DNA of 64,000 nt from Isoetes taiwanensis. Lineage: Eukaryota > Streptophyta > Lycopodiopsida > Isoetales > Isoetaceae. Position 1 is the first letter of the stretch; each line of letters begins with the position of its first letter. Position numbers and translations under genes: made by a program. The notes under the pieces were generated by a model. The model searched no databases. It saw only the letters and a list, made by a program, of their open reading frames with translations, and was not told the DNA's origin. Positions 5,750 to 57,385 of the stretch are shown here, one piece after another. The stretch lies in contig JAJEKV010000096.1 in NCBI GenBank assembly GCA_021234155.1, positions 2,603,678-2,667,677 of the forward strand, written 5' to 3'.

Positions 5750-6346
5750 GGACCTTGATCCAAAAAGTTGAGAATTTTTTCATACCATAAACCACTCTAT
5801 TTCTAGCTTTCCAGACATTCCACAAAGCAATAAACATTAGAGAGTTAGCAAAGGCACACTTATTTTGAATATAAGACAACAGATTACCCGAATCCTATTA
5901 GGGTAAAGATGTCCTAGATTATCAAAGAACCAAGACCAAAAGGGGTTTAGGTGGGGCAAAAGAAAATGTGCTCAAGATTTTTCTTCCCTATTGCATCCAA
6001 GATGGCAAAGAGCGTAAATATCAACATTCCTAATGGCAAGCAATTGTAAATTGGGGACACTTTTATTAGCTATCGGCCCGGATAAAGAGACCGGTCTTAG
6101 GGAAGCAATAGGAGTTCCGCACCTCCTTGAAGCGAGAATGTTGCTTTCTTCCTCCGAGATAAGCCACTTAGAACTTGCCTTGGAGGGTTCATCATTTTTA
6201 CTTATCAAAGAGTATATCTTGCTAACTTTGTAATGAGATTTGCCCTCCAGAGTCCAATTAGTTGCCCTTGGCACAATATTATTTACCCGGATATGAGGCG
6301 CATAAGATTTTATGTGAAAATAAATCTTTTTATCACCAAGTACCAT
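5750..6346 (-). pseudogene. LINE ORF2 C-terminal region with zinc-binding domain
   Basis: The minus-strand frame ending at 5972 reads a LINE C-terminal segment (SHYKVSKIYSLIS) and then LCHLGCNREEKS. In a shifted frame it continues with a WSWFFDNLGHL-like and LWNVWKARN-like stretch down to about 5770. This is the Cys/His reverse-transcriptase zinc-binding module typical of plant L1-type ORF2. The frame changes near 5975, so it is broken. Confidence 0.75.
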
Positions 6347-25815: not shown

Positions 25816-27440
25816 CCTGAGTGTACCTGCAGGTTAGTTGTCGTTTGATCCCATTTATGATGCAAAAATCTTTGAATTTTATTGACAAATATTCACCCCC
25901 ACAGTCTGATCTTATGCACTTTAGCTTTTCACATGCTCTCCATTTCTTTAACGAATTGTTTAAAAGCTGCCAAAGCTTGAGATTTTCTAGTAAGACAATA
26001 ACAAATATACTTCTTGCTATAACCATCTATAAATGAGATGAAGTATCTTTTGTTGGTCATGCTTCTAACATTTAGAGGGCCACACAAATCTGTATGAACT
26101 AGCTCACGTATTCTTTTTGCTCTGTACTTTGATTTTTTAAATGATAGTCTATTAAGTTTGCCAAACATGCATCCTTCACAAATGAATCCTTGCTTCTCTA
26201 ATTCTTTGCATTCTATTTTCTTAGCCAGAATTTTTAAATTGTTGTAGTGTCTGTGAGCTGGACGTTTGTGCCACGGTTCGATGTCATGAGTGTTCACACA
26301 ATTAATGCTATTGCACAAAGAACTTCTCATTTCAAACAAGTTTCTACACTTTTTTGCCAGGAACTTCAATTCATTTCCAATAACTATTTTACATGCTTTA
26401 GAGTCAAAATTGACTCTATATCCCAGATCCACCAATTGGCTAACAGATATCAAATTTTTTATCATGTTGGGAACACACAAGACATTTTCTACATCCACTA
26501 TATTTCCTTGCAAATCTGTTAACTGTAGCAGCCCACTCCTTTCAATCAAATGCAATGCTCCATTTCCAACTTATATATTCTTGGAGTGCACTTGTTTGAT
26601 GTCCTTGAGCAGGTCCACAGATTGAACTACTGATCTCTCAGCTCCATTATCAACTATAAGTGTGCAGCATGATATTAGCTCCAACAAAATCGTCAACAAT
26701 AGGGCAAAAATATATTAACTCATTTTCATCTTCGATGTCCTTTCTTTTCCTTTTCTTTAGCTTGAGCAATATGCACACCAGTCTGCCTTCTTCACCCCGA
26801 CCCCTGCTTGCATTATATCTTCCTCCTCTGTTATCTTTCCCATTACCTCTTTCTTTGTCATAGTCCTTGGGGTAGAACATTTAGCTGCCACATGTCCTTT
26901 ACTACCGCAATTGTAGCAGTTATATTCATTCTTTAATTTAGGTCAATCCCTTTTGAAGTGTTCTGCCTCATGGCAATAATAGCAGTTTCCTTTGCTTCTC
27001 TTGCCAATAAATAGTACTTCAGTAGTGTCAATTTCCTTGAGCATCTCCTTCTGCTCATGCTCAGTCCTCAGTACATTTTTCGCCTCTTCCCTTGTCTTAC
27101 TCATATTCCTTATGAATAGAGCTAGCTGGTCATTTTCACTAACAGACCTTAAAATCAGAACTTGGCTCCTCTCAGATATGTGAACTCCTGCTCCAGCCAA
27201 ATCAGCTACGATGTTGTCAAAATTATAGAAGAAGTCTGACACATCTCCATCTTCTTGTAACCTTAGCCCTCTTAATTCGTTTTCTAACATATCTATTCGA
27301 GAACTTGTTTTCTCTTCGTAATGCTTTAGCAGAAATGACCATGATCAAACATTCAACAGATAAGTCAATGGACCGATAGGGAAGATCTAATGGAGCCAAG
27401 CCCAAACTAAATTTTTCGTTTTCCTTTTTCTTCCACATAG
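25815..27440 (-). pseudogene. Copia gag, zinc knuckles, pre-integrase and integrase, 3'-truncated
   Basis: Reading on the minus strand from 27440: a gag core (MLENELRGLRLQEDG, frame 27290-26943) ends in a zinc knuckle CYYCHEAEHFKRD. A second knuckle, CYNCGSKGHVAAKC, lies at 26920-26875. The frame 26555-25929 has a GAG pre-integrase region (LISVSQLVDLGYRV, PWHKRPAH), CEGCMFGKL, and the integrase core beginning HTDLCGPLNV. The frame 26026-25787 holds CIRSDCGGEYLS and RQLTCRY. Reverse transcriptase is missing. Stops separate knuckle, protease and integrase segments. It is the same family as 22090-23600. Confidence 0.85.
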
Positions 27441-33115: not shown

Positions 33116-34675
33116 CTAGATCATGATATATACTCTGTAACACATACTGGGCGCTTGTGTTCGAACCCCCACAACAATGTCAACACTTTACTCTAATTAA
33201 TCTAGAGTACTTCAGTATTATTTTGTGCCAAACTTCACTGCCTATATGGCCGTGATTATTTGTCTGCGCCACATGCCTGTCAAATTGACAGCAACCTACC
33301 CTCTTTCGGGGTTGTTCTATCGTAATGGTCTAATAGTATCCAACCATTGTTGGATAGTCATCTCCTTCTAGGGTATCTAGATATGGTTGGGGCAGTGTTT
33401 CGAACCATTGCTTTAGTGCCTAAATAAATGTCATTAAGTTCCACAAATAAACTTATATATTCTAAGGGATTATGTGGATATCCCAAAGGACAGTACCACT
33501 CAAAGACCTCTTAAGAGAGGCCTCTTCTATTAAAAAGGTTCTTGGTGAATTCAACCCACCATGTTGTCCTAGGAAATGAAAGTCTTCTTTCCTAAGCCAT
33601 GCACCAAACCTTTAAAGAGCTTTTCAGCTCTTGCTGCCTTTCAACTCGGAAATCTATCTTTGCATAATAGAAAAGACCACCCTTCAAGTCATGCCATTCA
33701 TTCAAAGATCGTGGAGGTAATAACCATCCTATCCAGGTCGCTAAATATCATTAATAAGGGCCCTCATTCCTTCCCTTCTTCAATATGTTTTCTACACCCA
33801 TGGCCGATTTTCATTATCCCAGCCCTTACGCCTGATACAACGTATACAATTCACCCTTTGGTTGTGACCTTTATTCACTAGAGTCACCAATCCATTTACT
33901 CCTTTAGGTATTCGTTAACCATCTTATGGCTTCTAAGCCGCTATATATGCCCCTTATGTTGTTAACCCACATATCATTGGGGGTTAGGATTCAACGTTGT
34001 CGCCCGCCCTAGAAATGCTAGTCATTATGTCTACCTGTTTCTTATGTTTTGCCCTCTTGTCGGTCAGCCTAAGGGGATGATTAGCAAAGTCACCAAACTT
34101 CCCTTCTACCATCATACGACGGGATAGTTCATACAACCTGCCATACCCAAAACCCAATAGATACTTTCATCTTGTAACACTGAATTAATTTATTCTTCTA
34201 AAGCCTAGTTGAACTCCAAACATAAACCAACCACCAAAATGCGGTAAGAGCCATAGGGGCCCTCCTTTTTATTTCCAAACCGGTAAAAAGATACAACATA
34301 TTCTGAAAACACTTCCAACAAAACCCTGAACATAACACAATTTCTTTTGCTCACTTGCACGTAAGCACAACGTAAAAGTAGGGATACTAGAAATTCTTTA
34401 TGGATGAGATCGAGCTCAATAGTGGGAATCTCATAATCGACATTAATGTTTGCAAGGATCATGAAGTCCAAACACCAATATTTGCAATGACACGAGACAT
34501 AATCATAGGGTTCAACTCCCACATAAGTGAATATCAGTGTCCATGGGAATGCACATGCATTTTGCATTTTTTAATTTAGCACCAAATATCTTCTACACAA
34601 AGTGTATCTTCTGCACATGGCATCTTTTGCACTAAACCAAATAAAAGAAATGTTCGTGGCGGTCAATTTCGTCGC
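33116..34675. other. Unassigned
   Basis: No recognised domain. A B-box-like TGTGTTCGAACCCCC (33151-33165) has no convincing A box upstream. Frames at 33576-33881 and 34205-34567 match nothing I know. Confidence 0.35.
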
Positions 34676-34679
34676 ATCG

Positions 34680-35065
34680 AATTTCTAGATCGATGGAATT
34701 CTAGAATGGGGCTCGCATGAAAACGACAAAAACCTCCCGAATAGAAGAGAAATTCCTTAGCAAAACGGAATCGAGGACGAAGGTCAAAGGATTATGGCTA
34801 AAGAAGAGGCAAGGCCGAGAAAGGACATGCCACAGCATTAATTGGTCAATCCAAGCAGGGAAAAGCCCCTCCCCTGCATGGTTTCAAAGAGAATAAGGTA
34901 CTGCTGAGAGAGAAGAGGAAGCGCCGATGAGACGTTGATGAAGAACCTCGCCTAATATAGCGATCTCCCAACCAGAGAGGCATGCAATACATGCATGCGA
35001 GACATGCATGCTCGCCCCCTCTAGAATCTCGATCCGAGGGCTTGGATCGATGGAATTTAGAGCAC
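34680..35065. repeat. Dispersed ~370-bp repeat, copy A (possible TRIM or LTR)
   Basis: Shares with 56840-57385: GGGGCTCGCATGAAAACGAC, ACAAAAACCTCCC, AAGGTCAAAGGATTATGGC, TTGGTCAATCCAAGCA, CTGCTGAGAGAGAAGAGGAA, CCTCGCCTAATATAGCGATC and a hairpin ATGCATGCGAGACATGCAT, then TCTCGATCCGAGGGCTTGG. On the minus strand the TATATTAGG word is TATA-like. No coding sequence. Confidence 0.75.
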
Positions 35066-43887: not shown

Positions 43888-44640
43888 TTACTCAGGAAAT
43901 ACATCTTTAAACTCATACAAAACTTGTTGTACTTCAGGGGCAATGGTTTCCTCTTGCGAGCCTACCAAGCTATCCCTTAACACTGCACATCCCATTTTGG
44001 AGCAACCTCTTCTGAGTTGCTTCTTAAGCCCCTTCCCAACCAATGGAATGATAGCGTACGATGAAGCTAACCCTTCCAACATATGCTCTTTCCCATCCGG
44101 ACTAGAACAATGGACTAATTGCTTAGCACAATCAATGCGAGCAGCCCACTGTCTCAACTATGACATTCCCAGAATGGCATCGTACTTTTCAAGGCCAATG
44201 ACCTCAAAATCAGCATGGGAGATCATATCTTTCACCTTAAATTCAAGGCACTCAACCATAGCATACGATGGCTTAACCTCGCCATTGGCTAGTTCTATAT
44301 ACCTCGCAGGCCATCCAATCGCATGCAAGTTTAACTTAGCAACCAATTTTGGAGAAATAAAACTATGGGTACTGCCACAATCAATAAGGAAAACACTTAA
44401 TATCCATCAATCTAGTTATGAGAAAAATCTTCAACTAGAGAACTCTTGTCATCAGAGTGTTTACTGATTAAGGCATCAATGGCCGCTTGATCCCCCGAAT
44501 CCAATGAGAGGTCATCTCCTTCACATGCGTACAGATGGACTTCATTGCATTCTAAAGAAGCTTCTGCAAAACCGAGGATAGATCCCACACTAGTTTCTAC
44601 CCTGGAAGGATGACTCTCCTCTGATCTCTAGGTCGTCTCG
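43888..44640 (-). pseudogene. Gypsy aspartic protease and gag-pol linker
   Basis: Near 44390 on the minus strand, LIDCGSTHSFISPKLVAKL carries the retroviral-type protease active-site triad in the form DCG, followed by YAMVECLEFKVKDMISHADF and KYDAILGMS (44346-44158), the usual flap and ILG segment. The frame 44157-43888 continues toward the reverse transcriptase. Upstream (44640-44400) is an acidic stretch shared with 56100-56270 on the plus strand. Gag itself is missing. Confidence 0.8.
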
Positions 44641-44689
44641 ATTACATGCTCACTTAGTGGGGGTTTGGGCACTTAAGAACTATTCATAC

Positions 44690-47499
44690 ACAATTACAAC
44701 TCATAATACCATAACAATCATCATTGCTTACCAAATAGCCCCATTACACCCAACCAACCAGGTTAGTATACATACAAGCCACAGGCAACATTTCCATATC
44801 TATGCCTAAACATTCTCATCAGCACACAGTGCCTACTCCGGTTCTAACATGCACCCAGGCTGATCAGGCCCTGCGGCCAATACGGGCAGGGTTTGCCTCA
44901 TGTGTACACACCCTTCCATGTTGCGTCCAGCACTGGAGGACCACTTTTGCCATGTAGCGCGACAATCCAGCCAGGATAACAATGCCCGATGTCACGCACA
45001 AACACAACTGCAAGTCCAAGCCCCAGAGACTATGCACTTATGCAATATTTTATTAAGCACATATGTTCCAATACCATTATGATTGCAATCCACGCAATAT
45101 CCAAATATAACTATAATGATGATATCATAATAGAATACAATTCCCCATGCATTTTTCTAACATGTATACCACAATAGAAATGCTGATTCTATATAAGACA
45201 TACCATGCATGCATCTTTTCATGATACAATGCCCATTCTGCTCATGGCATAAGGAACATACAACAATCATAACCAAGTATCTATTTTGCCTAGGGTTTGT
45301 TAGGGAATCTCTAGTCGACCCCTATGTTCAAGGATTCCATTACCAACCATTATACTAAGTTCCAGTATAAGGTACATTGGCACCATTTCCCATTTTATAT
45401 CGTTTCTCGGCAAGGTCTTTTTATCCTTAATTTCTCCCCACGTAAGAAGGTTCTTCCCATTATCTTAAGTGTGTATTAATCTAAGCCAACATTTTGTTTT
45501 CATTAAAAATCTCCTTCCTTACTAAGTTTGTTTAACGATTTCCTACTTGTTAAATTCACGTTCTCTACATTTTGCTATTAATTTGCCTAGAACCCATGCC
45601 TGCACTCATGGTTCTCATGCATCTCCTCGGCCTAGAATCCTCCCAAATCTCCGTAACTAAACCAATTTAGTCCCCATTGCAACCCATGGTATTTTTTTGT
45701 GTATCTTAGTATTTATTTAAAGTTATCATCAGTTTTATTTAGTGTTATTTTATAGGCTGATGCTGACGTTCATCTTCAGCCCTAACAGGTCGTGCCCCCA
45801 ACACCTTCAATGCAGGCCCTATGCCTTCATTTCCTCATACATCTGGCCTCCCAGAGGCCTAACATCCCAAATCGGCCCTTGTGGCCTCAGTTTTGACCCT
45901 AGGAGATCCACCCTCTTTATAAGGGATATGCCACCTGTGTGCATAGGGTAGCCAAAAAACCCCTAGTATACGTGTTTCTAATAGGCAAATTTGACCCCTT
46001 TTCGTATGATTTTATAACTAGAAGAGCCGACCCAAAATCCTATGACCCCTAGTATACATACGAAAAAGGGTAAAAAATTGCCCCCCCCACAAAAAAAAAA
46101 AAGCACGTGGTTTTGACAGGTTCCACAAGGTGATGTCCCTTTGGTTCCGACCTCCTTAGGTCGATTTGGTGCCCTAGCAATACCGTTTGACAGCTCCAGC
46201 TATGGCAGCTCGGCTTCAATCCAGAGTTTATTTGAGCCTCCAGCATTCAAATTTGCCCTTCTAGACCAATTTCAGCCCTTTATCGAGGGCCGGCCCAGGC
46301 ACGCTCGTCCGTTCCTAATCATGCCACAACTCTGTCTTACCCCTGTTTCCAAGCTATCCAACCAGACTTTACCAAGCTCTAGCTCTTCCGGTTAATCCCT
46401 AAACTTATTGAGCATTTCTTTAACATCATATAGCCCTTAAAATCTCCTTTGGTGACCTATCTCGAATCCTCCCGCAATACTAGACAGCCAATACGAATTC
46501 TACAACCTGCTTCCTATAATAATTTTAATTCTTTAATACTTCCATTCTAACCAGATTATTCATACCAATGTTGTTAAAAAACCCGTTTTTTATTTTTAAA
46601 GTACCTCTATAAAAATCCTCACGTTTTTTAAAGGATTTTTATGATTTGGCATGGCCAAAAATAAAAAATAAAGAAATTGCACATTCTTTGCACTGCTTTA
46701 TTGGACATATTTGCTACTGTTAGAATGCACATTTTTGCTACAAGTTATAAGACGTAGCATGCCAACAAGTAAATCAAAAACTTATACTGCTATTAGAAAC
46801 TATTAAGTTCAAGTACATAGATATCATAGCTGTTTTGCCATGCAACTCTTAAGAAAGTTTAGAAAAACACTATTATAGAGGTTAAGAAGTATAAGAATTT
46901 TATATACAAGGATAAATAAGTTCAAGAATATCATATATTTGGTTAAAAAAAAATCATAGCCTAAGGATTTTTAAGGATTTTTAAAGATTTTTAAGGATTT
47001 TTAAGGATTTTAAAGATTTTTAACGTATTTTATATAAAATACGTTTTTAAAGATTTTTTTCAAAAATTTTAAAAATCTTCAAAAAATCTTAAAAAACGTT
47101 TTTTAAACGTACGGATTTTGACGTACTTAACAACATTGATTCATACAAAGCAAGATGCAATTAACTCCATAATTTTTTTATTTAGCCAAGATCAACTTTA
47201 TGCATCCTAACATCAAATGAGTAAGTTGTAAATCACCCACCTGGTTAAGCTTTCTTTGTAGTTGTCTGCTTGGTCTCCAAGCCTCCTTTACAGAAAACTC
47301 CTCCTCAGCAAGTATACTCCCAATGGAAAACTTCAAATTCTCTACAATTTACTATATATAGACCTCCTGTATAAACATCTACATACCATGTATGTGTTTT
47401 TCTTTAAGTCGGTATTAGTTTAATGGTCTCTTATAATCATAACCAAATTGTATTAAACTACTTACGTCACTTGTCAGCTAACACTCCAGGCTCGTTACA
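44690..47499 (-). mobile_element. Gypsy long terminal repeat, minus copy, with hAT MITE inside
   Basis: On the minus strand the LTR starts TGTAACGAGCCTGGAGTG at 47499, matching TGTAAAGAGCCTAGGGTG at 51052 on the plus strand. The two copies align throughout, including ATACATGGTATG, GGTGGGT and AGGCCTAACATCCCAAATCG. This copy has two extra pieces: the hAT MITE (46566-47138) and about 240 bp at 45900-46143. Without them the LTR is about 2 kb. The inner edge near 44690 is approximate; no clean primer site is visible. Confidence 0.8.
46558..47146. mobile_element. hAT-type MITE in the Gypsy LTR (element 46566-47138, with 8-bp duplications)
   Basis: Terminal inverted repeats CAATGTTGTTAA and TTAACAACATTG bound a 573-bp element. 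It is flanked by the 8-bp direct repeat ATTCATAC (46558-46565 and 47139-47146); the plus LTR copy shows the site once, near 51415. Eight-bp duplications and CA(A/G)TGTTGTTAA ends are hallmarks of the hAT superfamily. The right part carries AAGGATTTTT tandem repeats (46965-47030) and an AACGTATTTTATATAAAATA palindrome. It is non-coding, so mobilisation would need a transposase in trans. Confidence 0.9.
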
Positions 47500-48639: not shown

Positions 48640-50850
48640 ACAGGTGCGTGTGTGTGCTACCATCATGAAAGCTTGAGAAGTTATTGGACTGCCTTTTAAA
48701 CACGCTATGGTCACTATGAGTTTGTGGTGATGCCGTTTGATTTACGCGCCTACTACCTTTATGCGATTGATGAACAATGTTTTTAGACCCTTCCTGGGCG
48801 ATTTCATATTGGTGTTCTTTGATGATATTCTAGTTTATTCTAGAACCCTGCAAGAGCATGTGAAGCATGTGAGGTAGGCTTTGAGTATCCTGAAAGAAGA
48901 GAAGTTGTATGGAAAAATGTCGAAATGTTCTTTTGCACCGCATAAATTAGTGTATTTGGGCTTTATAATTTTTGAAGATGGGGTTGCGCCAGATCCCGCA
49001 AAGACAAAAGCTGTGAAAGATTGGCCAATTCCATAGTCTGTGAAGGAAGTAAGAGCTTTTTGGGACTTGTAGGTTACTATCGCAAATTCGTCCCTAAATT
49101 TTCAAATATTGTTGCTCCTCTCACGCCATTGTTGAAGAAAGGGATTAATTTGGCTTGGACGTAGAATTGAAGGAGGCGTTAATTCGAGATCCTATTTCGA
49201 AGACATTTGATATGGATCAGCCCATTCAAGTAGTCACAAATGCCTCTGGAAAAGCTATCGATGGAGCTTTATTGCAGCATGGAAGAGTATGTGCCTATAC
49301 ATCTCATAAATTGTCGCCAGCAGAGTAGAATTATCTAATGCATGATTTGAAGATGTTGGCAATCATACATGCTTTGCATGTATGGAGACACTACCTATTA
49401 GGTCGTCATTTCTCATTGAAGACTAACCATCAGAATCTAAAATTTTTGTGAAGCAGCCACATTTGAATAGGCAGCGAAGTGGATGCAATTGCGAGAAGAA
49501 TACGATTTTGAGATTGAGTATCAGCCGGGCAAGGAGAATGTGATAGCGGATGCTTTATCCCGCAGATCTGTTTTTACCTCTATTAGTATGCTTCAGGGTC
49601 AATGGAATGCTCATCTCATGGATAAAGTGGCACGGGACCCGTATTTTGGGCCGGTGGTTGCCAGTATCAAAAGGGGTCTACCAAGTTTCCACAATACTCG
49701 TTATCTAATGGAGTCTTGTATTACAAGGATCCGACGTGCAGGATGAGGCTCTTGTATGAAGCGCATGATAGTCCATTAGGGGGACATCCCGGGGTGCACA
49801 AGACTCAAAGGAAGGTCAGATAACATTTCTTTTGACGGGGGCAGAAGAAAATGGTTAAAGAGTATGTGGCAAAATGTTTAGAATGCCAGAAAGTTAAAGC
49901 TTCACGATCTAAAGCCCCAGGGGAGTTGCAACCATTGGAAGTTCCTTCATCCATATGGGAATGCATTGGCATTTTGTAGATCTACCTCGAACATGAGTAG
50001 GGTATAATGCCATTTATGTTGTGGTAAACAGATTGATTAAGCAAGCGCATTTTATGCTAACAAAGACGACAATTACAGCTATGGATATCTCCAAGTTATT
50101 TGTCAAAGAATTTTTTAGGTTGCATGGTATGCCAGTACTATTACCTCCGATCGAGACTCAAGGTTCATGAGTAATTTTTGGCAAGGATTGTTCCGGAATG
50201 TGGGAACTAAGTTAAATACTAGCACTGCATACCACCCACAGACAACCGGGCAAGTGGAGCGAGTAAATCAGGTTTTGAAGGATATGCCAAGAATGTATGT
50301 GTTGAGCCAGCCTAAGGCGTGGGATTCCTATTTACATTTGTCAGAGTTTGCATACAATAATACATACCAAGAATCTATCAGGATAAGTCCCTTTGAGGCA
50401 ATGTATAGCAAAGAGTGCCAATGTCCGATGAATTGGAGGGATTCTACTTGCAATGTGGAAATGGCCAATGAGGTAGCCTAGGATTTGGATGCACAATTCA
50501 GGGGGGACTTTGTCAAAATCTTGCAATGGTTCAAAATAGGCAGAAGCAGTATGCAAATAAAAGGCGCAAACCTTTAGAATTCACAGAAGGTCAATATGTA
50601 TTCTTACGGATTAATCCCAAACAGAATAGAATAGAATAGAATAGAACAGAGCTTATTGGCATTTAAAAGTGCGGGGAAGTGGGCTCCGAGGTATGCAGGA
50701 CCCTTTAAGATCCTGGAACGTATCGGGAAAGTAGCTTACAGGTTGGAATTACCCTCGCATGTTAGGGTGCATAATGTATTCCATGTGAGCAACTCGAGGA
50801 AATATGTCTTTGATCCGTCGCATATGCTTGCCGTGATGATTTAGTAAGCA
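48640..50850 (+). pseudogene. Gypsy pol: reverse transcriptase, RNase H, integrase, chromodomain-like tail
   Basis: Plus-strand segments in shifting frames: YGHYEFVVMPFDL (48708-48747), an FDDILVYS-like catalytic box near 48820, [16 protein letters not shown] (49057-49104), an RNase H end KWMQLREEYDFEIEYQPG and NVIADALSRRS (49471-49570). The integrase catalytic-core end is MSNFWQGLFRNVGTKLNTST, then AYHPQTTGQVERVNQVLKD (50167-50285). After it come [20 protein letters not shown] and [12 protein letters not shown] (50686-50810). Gag, protease and the N-terminal reverse transcriptase are missing. A run of ATAGA units (50622-50645) is inserted in the integrase tail. Many stops: inactive. Confidence 0.85.
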
Positions 50851-51051: not shown

Positions 51052-53393
51052 TGTAAAGAGCCTAGGGTGTTAGCAGACAAGTGATGTAAGTATTTTAATA
51101 CAATTTGGTTATGATTATAAGAGACCATTAAACTAATACTGAGTTGGGGAAAAATACATACATGGTATGCACATGATGTTTATACATGAGGTCTATAAAT
51201 ACTGAATTGTTAGAGGATTTGAAGTTTTTATATTGGAAGTATACTTAGCGAGGAGGAGTTTTTACGTGAAGGAGGCTTGGAGAGCAAAAGCATTAAACAA
51301 GCGCAAAAAAAGCTTAACCAGGTGGGTGGTTTACACCTTACACAGGGGATGTTAGGATGTGTAAACTTGATCTTGAATAAATAAGAAAATTTTGGAGTTG
51401 ATTGCATCTTGCTTTGTATAAATAATCTGGTTAGAATGGAAGTATTAAAGAACTAAAATTATTATAGCAAGCTGAGGTTATGGAATTTTTATTGGGTACA
51501 TCTAGTGGGATAGGTCATTAGAGGAGAATTTAAGGGCTATATGATGTTAAAGAATGTTTAATAAGTTTAGGGATTAACCGAAAGAGCTGGAGCTTGGTAA
51601 AGTCTGGTTGGATAGCTTGGAAGCGAGGGGGTAAAGGCGAGTTGTGGCATGATTAGGAATGGACTGAAGCGGTCGGGCTGGCTGAGAAAGGGCGAAATTG
51701 ATCTAGAAGGGCAAATTTGAATCTTTGGAGGCTCAAATAAACCCGGATTGGAGCCGAAGCTGCCATACTCGAGTCATCAGCGGCATTCGTTGAGAGCACC
51801 AAATCGACTGAAGAGGTCGGGCCGAGGCCACAAGGAACGATTTGGGATGTTAGGCCTCACGGGAGGCCAGATTCTGAAAACGAAGGCATAAGGGCCGTTG
51901 AAGCTATTGGACCCCTTGACCTGTTAGGGCTGAAGATGAATACCCGACAACGACCTACAAAGTAACACTAAATAAATAACTAAGGATAACTTTGAATAAA
52001 CAACACTAAGATACATATAACAATACCATGGGCTGCCATGGATATTAAATTGGTTTAGTTATGGAGATTGGGGAGGATTCTAGGCCGGGAAGATGCATGA
52101 GAACCATGAGCGTAGGCATGGGTTCTATGGAAATTAATAGCAAAATGTAGAGAACGTGAATTTAACAAGTAAGAAATTGTTGAACAAACTTAGTAAGGAA
52201 GGAGAATTTTAATGAAAACAAAATGTTGGCCTAGGTTAATACACACTTAGGTTGATGGGCTCTAATCAATTCCCGACCATTAGATAGGGGAATATTCCGA
52301 GGGATATGCCCTCTAGTGCGATCCCATCCCTACACCTCATGGGAGATGGGGTCAAGCCCGATGTGGCTCTATTCCTAAGGGGCCGTTGACATCCATTGCA
52401 AGGGATTTTGATGTCAATTGACTTCAAAGTAGCAAGCGCCACTATTCGAACCTTTGAAGCGGGGCGGCTCCTACAACTAAATTAGTAGGCGGTGAGGTTT
52501 CTCCCACAAGCTTCCACGATCTGAGTAGCAAAGCAACCCGAGCAGGTTGGGAGCCATCAAATCAGAGGCTTCTTGACTGCAAAGAGAATGTACAAACAAA
52601 CCGGGGTTTGAACCCCCCGCCAGCGCATTTCGCCATCCTTTTCTTAACTCTCATGTCTGATCATGCAGACAATGAGCAGCCATAACAGAAAGTGACATCT
52701 CCCTCAGGCAAGGAAGAGGAATTACCTAAGTTTCATTGACTTTGCATACGAAATTGCTAATGCACAAAGTGGATGAGTTCAGATTACTAGCAAACACTAC
52801 CTATCAATGAACAGCAACAAGAAGGCAGGGCATGTAAATTCGCCACTGTATAGCAATGAATAGAAAATGAATAAAAAGAAAGCGAGCAGAGCCATACCAT
52901 TGCGGCCGGAGCCGGATAGTGCATGCAGCCCAAAATAGAACACAGAAATAGGCATGGGTCTTAAAATAGGAAAGAGTGCAAGAAAAGCTTCCTGTGTGTG
53001 GCACCACATACCTGAGGCAAGCGTTCACAGCCACCATAGAAGCCTGAAGCAGAAGTGCACCTGGAATGAGGACCGCGGTACCGGGGATTGAACCCCTAGC
53101 GCCTTGTCTGCTCAAGCAATCTGCCCGCCCTTAAAGGGCAGGGGCTATTCCCATGCACATGCACATGCAATCACACCATGTTTTCCCTTAAGTTTTTTTG
53201 GCTGACCTGTAGTCCATTTCCACATCCATTTTTCATTTTTAGTTCCTTTTACGATGCATAGCACACGCCACACAAAAACAACACAATAAGCAAGCAAAGC
53301 ACTTTGTCTAGTTTTGTTCATAACAGACATTGTGGCGCTGGCCAAAGCGTCAATCGCCCGCAACTCCACGAGAAGAAGAGCCCGTCGCGAGAT

Positions 53394-53756
53394 TCATATC
53401 GCGCCCAAGATATCTTTGGCGCTCATCGTGGTGACCTCCACCTCTTCCCCTCCATGTGAGAGGCGACCTCTTCCAATCTTTGCAAAGAAGCCCAAGCTGC
53501 ATCCTAAACAATCGGCCGGAGGCGACCCACGGACTTCGGCGGTGTTAATGTTAACAATGCTTGACACAACATCGAGCAACAACGCACCGCTCCTGTTGGA
53601 GAAGGCAGCGGAGAGGGCCACGGCATTGTGAATCACATCATGGACACTTGGCCCGGGAGGCGGAGGCGTGAGGAGGGAAGATGGGGCCTCCTCATCACTT
53701 TCAATGTTAATGGCGGCATCGGTGGCCTCACCCCAACAAATGCAGCGGGACTGGCG
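53394..53756 (-). CDS. Possible C-terminal extension of the Replitron transposase, same frame beyond one TAG
   Basis: Directly after the TAG at 53757-53759 the same frame stays open for about 120 codons: CWGEATDAAINIESDEEAP, PPPPGPSVHDVIHNAVALS, LLLDVVSSIVNINTAEV and KDILGAI before a stop at 53394. The segment is GC-rich like the transposase and unlike its surroundings. Splicing from a donor near 53881 to an acceptor after the TAG (GCGCCAG near 53750) could join it, or the TAG may be a late mutation. I do not recognise a domain in it. Confidence 0.4.
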   Translation of the reverse strand, partial: RQSRCICWGEATDAAINIESDEEAPSSLLTPPPPGPSVHDVIHNAVALSAAFSNRSGALLLDVVSSIVNINTAEVRGSPPADCLGCSLGFFAKIGRGRLSHGGEEVEVTTMSAKDILGAI

Positions 53757-55034
53757 CTAGCGGCCCCATTCCCAATCTCCATCCCTATAGTCCCACCAGC
53801 ACGATCCATCTCTATTCAGGCATAATAATTGCAAAGAAAGATGCAAAATCAAAACAAACAAAGACATATGTACAAGACCTGCAGGCAGCCCCCTACAAGT
53901 CACCCAATTGCCATTGTGTAATCCGTACCCTTCCCAATCCGCTGAATGGGCTCCATCCGGTAGGGATCCCATCTCTGACACATCTAACATCGCTTGGCAA
54001 AGCCACTCACGGGTTTGATTGTCGGTGTCGGCGACCTTCACCCTATGCTTTCGGATATAAAGGCAAGTGTTAGAAGGAAGGATCCAGCTAGTAGACAACA
54101 CAAATTTACCGGTTCTAAGCATCCTAGTGATTGTGTATACAAGGCTAGAGCTCAGATGCCTTCCACCATGATAGTTTACAAAATGAAGAGCCCTTCCCAA
54201 GAGGTTCCTGTTATCCAGAACTACCACATGCTTAATGTCTCCTGCACCATACAGCAAGTACAGGTCCTTCCCCATCTCCAATTGGCGCTCGGAAACATTC
54301 TTTGTGTGCAGCTTGAAGTGGGGCTTCCTCATATCCTTCATGCAATACCCTATTAGCCCCTCAAAACAATGGAGCTTCGTATTTCTTAATGCCTTGCAAA
54401 TAAGAACAACCCCCACAGGCTTCTTACCTCCCCACCCAAACCTGCGCTTCATGGCCAAATTGACTACTCTAGGGGACTTCAGAGCAAGCCTAAAGACACA
54501 TTGGTAATGCAGGTGGTCTAGGTCACTCCCCCTCTCCGCTGCAACAGCACCTGACACACAATCCTCCTGACAGAACTTAATCAGCATGTCATAGAACTCT
54601 GGGGGTGCATCCTTGCCTGCCACACCCAGGGTAACACTGACGTCTATGAGGCCTATGCCTTCATCCTCAAGGCCATCTCTGCATGCCTCTATAGTAGACC
54701 TGCCAGAAGAAGACTCTGGTTGCCCATTCCTGCCTGCCCGCCCTGCTCTTCTAGCATCCCTCCTCATGGAAAGAAAACAAGCAGAAGAAGGAAGAACAGA
54801 AGGGAATGAAGCAAACCTGGTTAATATACGCAAGGCGCCTCCAAGGTGACGATTTATACACAGAAATCTGGCCGGATTCCCCATCTTATCCACAACCACG
54901 TCGCCAGGAACGGCAAGCGTGGCCTTCCAAACATAGCGCCCCGAGCTAGTTGGGCACATCCGCGAATACAGTCTGCCCACTAAACCTAACCATTGCTGAA
55001 TGCACCCCAAATGAAAAACAGTCGAAAATGGCAA
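53757..55034 (-). CDS. Replitron transposase: HUH (Rep) endonuclease, single catalytic tyrosine
   Basis: The longest intact frame in the window, 425 codons. By analogy with HUH endonucleases it would nick one DNA strand, form a 5'-phosphotyrosine link and drive copy-and-paste rolling-circle transposition in the nucleus. Motif I is IDVSVTLG (130-137). The metal-binding HUH motif is DHLHYQC, with His174, His176 and Gln178. The catalytic motif is LIGYCMKD, with Tyr230 and Lys233. Only one tyrosine is placed there and no helicase follows. Residues 240-350 form an extra conserved-looking domain (LGRALHFVNYHGG, RMLRTGKFVLSTSWIL), which in this family is proposed to aid oligomerisation. The first 89 residues look non-coding in character; Met90 (MRRDARRAG) is a likelier start. 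The last ~35 residues may be intron: GTCTTGTACATATG is donor-like near 53881. All catalytic residues are intact. Confidence 0.82.
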   Translation of the reverse strand: MPFSTVFHLGCIQQWLGLVGRLYSRMCPTSSGRYVWKATLAVPGDVVVDKMGNPARFLCINRHLGGALRILTRFASFPSVLPSSACFLSMRRDARRAGRAGRNGQPESSSGRSTIEACRDGLEDEGIGLIDVSVTLGVAGKDAPPEFYDMLIKFCQEDCVSGAVAAERGSDLDHLHYQCVFRLALKSPRVVNLAMKRRFGWGGKKPVGVVLICKALRNTKLHCFEGLIGYCMKDMRKPHFKLHTKNVSERQLEMGKDLYLLYGAGDIKHVVVLDNRNLLGRALHFVNYHGGRHLSSSLVYTITRMLRTGKFVLSTSWILPSNTCLYIRKHRVKVADTDNQTREWLCQAMLDVSEMGSLPDGAHSADWEGYGLHNGNWVTCRGLPAGLVHMSLFVLILHLSLQLLCLNRDGSCWWDYRDGDWEWGR

Positions 55035-55959
55035 AGATTCCCTTATGCCCCATTCATGTACACTTTTCTATACAATACACCCTAATAACCATTACAACCT
55101 CATGTTACAAACATACCCTTTTATGAACTAGCAAACTATATGGGACGAACCTTTTTAGGTGGGGAAAAATTAATGGGTAAAAAGATCTTGCCGGGAGAAA
55201 TCGCATTAAATGGGAAATGGTACTAGTGTACCTTATATTGGAACTTAGTATAATGGTTGGTAATGGAATCGTTGAACATGGGGGTCGACTAGAGATTTCC
55301 TAACAAACCCTAGGCAAAATAGAGACTTTGTTATGATGGTTCTATGTTCCTTATACCATGAGTAGAATGGGCATTGTGTCATAAAAAGATGCATGCATGG
55401 CATGTCTAATGTGGAATCGCATTTCTATTAGAGAAAGGCATGGAGAATTGTATTCTATTATGATATCATCATTATGGTTATATTTGGATATTGCATGGAT
55501 TGCAATCATAATGGTATTGGAACATATATGCTTAATAAAATATTGCATAAGTGCATAGTCTCTTGGGGCCGGAGTCCTTGTGCGGTGGCTTGGACTTGCG
55601 CTTGTGTTTACGCGTGGCATTGAGCTTTGTTATCCTGGCTGGATTCTTTGTCGTGCTACATGGAAAAAGTGGTTCTCAGTCGTTGGATGCGGCATGGAAG
55701 GGTGTGTACACATGAGGACCTCCCCTCCCCCCCCCAGCTCTGTGGTCCGGATCAGCCCGGATGGCATGTTAGAACTGGAGTAGGCACTGTATGATAATGA
55801 GAATTAAGCATGCATATGGAAATGTTATCTGTGGCTTGTATGCATACTAACCTGGTTGGTTGGGTTTAGTGGGACTATTCGATAAGCAATGATGATTGTT
55901 ATGGTATTATGAGTTGTAATTATGTATGAATAATCCTTAAGTGCCCCAAATCCCCACTT

Positions 55960-56280
55960 AGTCTTTAGGACTAATCCCCAGGTTGGTGTAACCAGTACCT
56001 GATGGAGCCGAGTACAGTAATGCCACAGAGACCTGAGGATCAGAGAGTTGGAGACAAGATCAGGCGTGAGGAGGTGTCTAGATTTCCTTTACGAATTGGA
56101 GGACGAGGCTAGTGAGCATGTAACCGAGACAACCCAGAGATCAGAGGAGAGTCATCCTTCCAGGGTAGAAACTAGTATGGGATCTACCCCTAGTTTTTGT
56201 GGCCATAAATGCCTTAATGAGCGAACCCTCTGATGAAAAGAGTTCTCTAGTTGAAGATTTTTCTCATAACTAGCAATTGT
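55960..56280 (+). pseudogene. Gypsy 5' internal region (leader/gag-protease linker), truncated
   Basis: GAGCATGTAACCGAGACAAC, CAGAGGAGAGTCATCCTTCC and AGTTCTCTAGTTGAAGATTT match, inverted, the region 44400-44660 of the minus Gypsy copy. About 130 bp at 55965-56095 have no counterpart there. Homology stops at about 56275. Confidence 0.7.
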
Positions 56281-56838
56281 ATTGATTCTATAATGGGGCT
56301 CGCATGAAAATGACAAAAACCTCCGATAGATAGGCTTCTCATTCATCTAGCAGATTTTCTACAATGGTGGATAGTGGATAGCCGCACACATGCGAACCAC
56401 CCACGAAGAAAAATAAAAAGAATGTCCAATTATACAACTTGGACCCCAGAAAATACAATGCTACTAGATGTTTGGTTTGTGTACCTGCCGAAAGCTTATC
56501 ACGGGGATTAAAAAACCCTGCCCTTTCGGGTTTTCGAGGAAAAACCCTAGTGATAAGGCTTTGACAAGGGGCTTAGACAAATGTAAGGCTGAGAAATTGC
56601 TCCTAAAAAACCCACGAATGGAGAAGTCGAAGCGGCTATCACTTACCAACCTGTACCTGCACATCACCAACACTAGAACAAATGTGAAAAAACAAACCTC
56701 CCAAAGTGGAGAGGCTGATCACGCGTGCCACACAACAACAAAAGAGAAACCACTTCAAATAGAGGGTCTAGTCACGCGTGTCACGCGACAAATACATTAA
56801 ACAATTAAGGGCGGGGAAGGTGGGCTTCAGAGAAATAG
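56281..56838. mobile_element. Mixed fragments: dispersed-repeat start and LINE 3' hairpin module
   Basis: GGGGCTCGCATGAAAATGAC (56294-56313) is the start of the dispersed repeat of 34680. GGGGATTAAAAAACCCTGCC then CTTTCGGGTTTTCGAGG (56503-56537) is the LINE 3' module. Two CACGCGTG words (56721 and 56772) flank a short tandem duplication. No gene. Confidence 0.5.
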
Positions 56839-56839
56839 A

Positions 56840-57385
56840 GAATAAGATACTGCTGAGAGAGAAGAGGAAGCGCCGATGAGATGTTGATGAAGAACCTCGC
56901 CTAATATAGCGATCTCCCAACTAGAGAAAGCATTGAATGCATGCATGCGAGACATGCATGCTCGCTCCTTCTAGAATCTCGATCCGAGGGCTTGGGTTGA
57001 TGGGATTCTAGAACGGGGCTCACATGAAAACGACAAAAACCTCCCAAATAGAAGAGAACTTCCTTATAAAAATGGGATCGTGGGTGAAGGTCAAAGGATT
57101 ATGGCCAAAGAAGAGGCAAAGGAGAAAATGCCTGAAAGATGAAAGAAACGCCAAATTGGTCAATCCAAGCAAGGAGAAGCCCATCCCCTGCATAGCTTCA
57201 GAGAATAAAGAATAAGGTATACTGCTGAGAGAGAAGAGGAAGCGTCGCTGAGACGTTGATGAAAAACCTCGCCTAATATAGCGATCTCCCAACTAGAAAA
57301 AGCATGCAATGCATGCATGCGAGACATGCATGCTCACCCCCTCTGGAATCTCGATCCAAGGGCTCGGATCGATGGGATTGTGGTT
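56840..57385. repeat. Dispersed repeat, copies B and C in tandem (possible TRIM)
   Basis: The CTGCTGAGAGAGAAGAGGAA to TCTCGATCC block occurs at about 56851-56990 and again at 57223-57360. The CATGAAAACGACAAAAACCTC region lies between them. Two flanking copies around a short non-coding interior look like a terminal-repeat retrotransposon in miniature, though no primer site was recognised. Confidence 0.65.

Follow-up and report, generated by a model that had tools for sequence, protein, structure and literature searches.

The longest open frame listed for the window (the whole 64,000-nt stretch of Isoetes taiwanensis DNA analysed here, contig JAJEKV010000096.1) encodes 425 aa on the minus strand (Table 1), the runner-up being 227 aa long. 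The stop-free run around this frame extends over 436 codons, a length reached in 0 of 1000 first-order Markov sequences with the length and composition of the element described below (longest run over six frames: median 129, maximum 311 codons). The sequences DVSVTLG (residues 131–137, window positions 54624–54644), HLHYQ and YCMKD were all located on the minus strand in that order, which is the HUH order described in a previous sequence-only reading of this DNA. We take YCMKD, with its YxxK pattern, to be the catalytic-tyrosine motif. It follows the HUH motif and contains no second tyrosine, which would place the protein in the Y1 type by motif alone. The exon containing the HUH motif has neither a stop codon nor an evident frameshift.

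Table 1. Features of the element and of the paralogous site, in window coordinates.
Feature	Position	Strand	Basis and remarks
Probable Replitron insertion, 2,880 bp	52260–55139	minus (transposase sense)	Flanks contiguous in the empty paralogous site; blastn blocks
Target-site duplication, copy 1, ATGGG	52255–52259		Empty-site comparison; single copy there (45456–45460)
Target-site duplication, copy 2, ATGGG	55140–55144		Empty-site comparison
Possible last exon (hypothetical)	53394–53750	minus	Weak coding score; splice enumeration
Open frame, 425 aa	53757–55034	minus	Frame list; holds the HUH transposase domain; TTG start mechanical
Replitron_HUH domain	54258–54635	minus	Residues 134–259; Pfam PF21859
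YCMKD, presumed catalytic-tyrosine motif	54333–54347	minus	Residues 230–234; Tyr230
HUH motif HLHYQ	54501–54515	minus	Residues 174–178; His174, His176
Paralogous repeat stretch without the insertion	44412–47499	minus	Matches in blocks with gaps; for comparison, outside the element

The Pfam profile Replitron_HUH matched the frame over profile positions 2–127 of 128 (E 4.5e-15), with a score of 56.6 bits, about twice the cut-off of 28.5. The piece beginning at the in-frame ATG of residue 90 (54111–54767) gave a slightly better match (58.3 bits, E 1.3e-15). The sole other Pfam family listed for the frame at E ≤ 1 was a sub-threshold zf-rbx1 RING finger (residues 6–29, E 0.086), and CRESS Rep, Helitron and helicase families were absent from the list at this threshold. 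Eight other stretches of the element, covering part of its frames, yielded no Pfam family at E ≤ 0.1, helicases included. None of the PHROGs families, a library restricted to viruses of prokaryotes, matched at E ≤ 1, and no PDB chain matched by sequence at E ≤ 5. The sequence-only reading had proposed a Replitron with a Y1 HUH transposase and without a helicase; the curated profile agrees with this assignment, and a helicase was not found in the stretches scanned.

Comparison of the window with itself by blastn matched both flanks of the region carrying this frame to a second repeat copy on the opposite strand: 52002–52259 aligned with 45713–45456 and 55140–55962 with 45460–44652, with a five-base overlap. 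Once joined, with one ATGGG removed, the flanks (52180–52259 and 55145–55240) aligned in one piece to 45535–45363 on the minus strand. The flanks are continuous in the paralogue and ATGGG occurs there only once; the intervening 2,880 bp are therefore an insertion accompanied by a 5-bp duplication, and the paralogue corresponds to the empty site. The insert has a GC content of 48.9%, versus 38.9% in the remaining window. Homologous blocks, with gaps between them, relate 51052–56273, reversed, to 47499–44412, at approximately 80–91% identity. Judged from these alignments, the insertion postdates the divergence of the two repeat copies, which sets an upper age only. The empty site and the duplication thus place the outer boundaries exactly where the sequence-only reading had put them, and its family assignment also stands. 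Its description of the copy as recently inserted and possibly autonomous was not established.

The two ends of the element, each taken as about 155 nt with the duplication, were compared for exact matches. The longest inverted match between them measured 6 nt, and no terminal inverted repeat was found. The longest exact direct match was 8 nt, and 200 shuffles gave a mean of 6.9 and a maximum of 10, with at least 7 nt in 61.5% of them. Direct terminal repeats are therefore not demonstrated, because the direct matches are close to the shuffled expectation: beyond the duplication, none exceeded chance in these ends of about 155 nt from one copy. ATGGG, present once in the empty site, is the only repeat found at both edges. 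Each of the four 120-nt end strands had a hairpin energy below the shuffled mean, by less than two standard deviations. The 3' portion of the element contains two motifs resembling a tRNA T arm, which we take to be B-box-like, at a distance of 480 bp from each other (52600–52616 and 53080–53096, motif on the minus strand). A loose pattern of the same kind also occurs near positions 6039 and 5149 of two sampled stretches of the host assembly (L006 and L011, respectively) and near window position 34508. Rfam gave one sub-threshold match only and ARAGORN no tRNA, and neither found a tRNA at the two motifs, which are possibly SINE remnants.

Just upstream of the target, at about 48.5–50.8 kb on the plus strand, a decayed Ty3/gypsy-like coding sequence was identified by reading of the frames, which presumably represent reverse transcriptase, RNase H and integrase of the Ty3/gypsy type. 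Neither a Pfam family (E ≤ 0.1) nor a second place in the window matched the integrase-like fragment (50167–50481). Relatives of this fragment are present in the sampled assembly, the best being in stretch L014 (39% over 87 aa, E 5e-19). The target is presumably the 3' portion of that Ty3/gypsy-like retrotransposon. Other repeats were observed in the window. A fragment at 25929–26555 on the minus strand, which we assume to be Copia-like, carries a GAG-pre-integrase domain that passes the Pfam cut-off (E 2.4e-07), besides a weak integrase core. Segments rich in GCATGC characterise a repeat of about 180 bp that occurs twice beside the element (56824–57007 and 57195–57379, about 90% identical), and related sequence is found at 34692–35061 (34.7–35.1 kb). 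Degenerate tandem arrays, mainly of 87–90-bp units with TCTAGAACAT sub-repeats, are present at 858–1406 and 2459–2969 and are alike in both places.

No second copy of the element was seen within the window, where the remaining tblastn matches had E values of at least 0.16. Sampling of the host assembly, comprising 202 kb (5 kb of N) all drawn from the initial 392 kb of a single contig, revealed a copy in 0 of 21 stretches (tblastn E ≤ 1, blastn E ≤ 1e-3). Protein homologues were not found at E ≤ 0.01 among the 7,996 scored candidates sharing most words, nor at E ≤ 1 among 933 candidates, and none of the pattern matches obtained in viral contigs (6) and genome contigs (23) was confirmed. We take these empty homologue searches to reflect a limit of collections that are probably poor in plants, and they are no evidence of novelty. 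AF2 models of 219 and 140 aa, generated without an alignment, had low confidence (pLDDT 32.8 and 42.9, respectively). Fold searches with the second model at E ≤ 10 returned 218 matches in the PDB and 236 in the viral collection, none of them at E ≤ 0.001. RNA polymerase stalk subunits led the best 50 of the 218 PDB matches (best E 0.42); among the best 50 of the 236 viral matches, a mixed set (best E 0.22), a CRESS Rep fragment ranked 29th (E 2.4). Given the low confidence of the model, neither list supports or refutes an HUH fold.

On the basis of its sequence, the insert is very probably a single Replitron, a DNA transposon of the HUH-endonuclease type, with one recognisable gene, on the minus strand, that would encode a Y1 HUH transposase. 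The 425-aa frame itself probably differs from the exact protein, because its TTG start is mechanical, not being credible in a eukaryote, and because a weak coding score beyond the stop hints at a further, last exon. In-frame ATGs, for example those of residues 26, 51 and 90, are other possible starts, and there may be an intron near the N-terminus. The base-position coding score was trained on 54767–54147 of the same frame (207 codons) and applied in 120-nt windows, so positive scores inside that segment are circular. The score was below zero at 54839–54660, around the ATG of residue 90, and at 53999–53760. It was positive again in the same frame at 53759–53520 (+0.06 to +0.15), past the stop at 53757; this signal of a last exon is weak, because 52679–52560, which contains a stop and has no other sign of coding, also reached +0.12. 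There may thus be either an intron or damage near the C-terminus. Forty frame-keeping GT-AG joins are continuous to the stop at 53394. The putative intron at 53903–53751, which ranks first among them by a rough score, would join 54767–53904 to the hypothetical last exon; the protein would then have 406 aa, beginning with the ATG at 54767 and ending at this stop.

A narrower form of the Replitron assignment, rather than a competitor to it, is that the copy is non-autonomous or dead, with an intact HUH exon but damage in the C-terminal part or at the ends, so that the element no longer moves. Damage would explain the stop and the renewed weak score beyond it as well as an intron would, and the implausible TTG start and the absence of another copy from the 202 kb sampled are also consistent with a copy of this kind. 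However, the GT-AG joins that restore one continuous frame, and the uninterrupted HUH exon, argue against it. We consider the chances that the copy is non-autonomous or dead to be evenly balanced. A possibly distinct Replitron lineage, with ends lacking direct repeats of their own, a spliced C-terminal extension of the transposase and perhaps a host group without reported Replitrons, appears doubtful.

Three other explanations were also weighed. An endogenous fragment of a Rep from a CRESS-DNA virus or plasmid, rather than a transposon, would account for the motifs, since CRESS Reps have the same order of HUHxQ followed by YxxK. However, Replitron_HUH was the sole Pfam family above its cut-off, no CRESS Rep family was listed at E ≤ 1, no helicase domain was found in the stretches scanned, no relative was confirmed among the viral contigs, and the frame lies in a clean chromosomal insert with a target-site duplication, making such an origin very improbable. 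Similarly, a domesticated host gene of Replitron origin would be consistent with a long open frame amid decayed sequence, but the frame is enclosed in a complete transposon-like insertion, with its duplication, in a repeat, and we give this explanation hardly any weight. The Rep of Helitrons has two tyrosines and is fused to a helicase. A Helitron, which would likewise be an HUH transposon of eukaryotes, is scarcely credible here, as the element has one tyrosine in YCMKD, no helicase or Helitron Pfam match in the stretches scanned and a 5-bp duplication, whereas Helitrons make none according to the available text of PMC10741241. On these respective grounds, the Helitron, CRESS Rep and host-gene explanations were rejected.

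What is observed at this locus is the domain with its motifs intact, and an insertion that is clean and has a 5-bp duplication; nicking, a covalent intermediate and copy-and-paste movement would follow by analogy with the Replitron family. His174 and His176 would hold a divalent metal, and Tyr230 would attack single-stranded DNA at the element end and would stay attached through a 5'-phosphotyrosine. Host polymerases would then copy the strand, and the copy would be joined into a new site, generating a short duplication, here ATGGG. Craig, in PNAS in 2023, is said to have described Replitrons and their copy-and-paste movement. In the HUH superfamily, the tyrosine nicks DNA and forms a 5'-phosphotyrosine link, as stated in the available part of PMC13231165.

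Replitrons have been known only since their description in 2023, and no software for their annotation had been developed as of a review of that year, according to its available text (PMC10741241). The present copy, for which an empty paralogous site is at hand and whose ends are exact, target-site duplication defined and HUH exon intact, is a useful seed for annotation, and a useful substrate for testing the positions at which a Y1 transposase cuts. One copy by itself leaves knowledge of the group unchanged, and the element exemplifies well a type of mobile DNA that is already known, rather than a new one. The same part of the review lists green algae, liverworts, mosses, lycophytes and ferns as hosts, with Replitrons absent from hornworts and seed plants, and gives an element length of 0.9–4 kb, target-site duplications of 2–8 bp and short direct terminal repeats of 5–11 bp (PMC10741241). 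The element studied here may differ from known Replitrons in that short direct terminal repeats of its own were not found above chance and in its possible C-terminal intron. It resembles them in its nearly full-length Replitron_HUH domain, its Y1 motif, the lack of a detected helicase and of detected terminal inverted repeats, and its length and target-site duplication, both of which fall within the ranges of the family.
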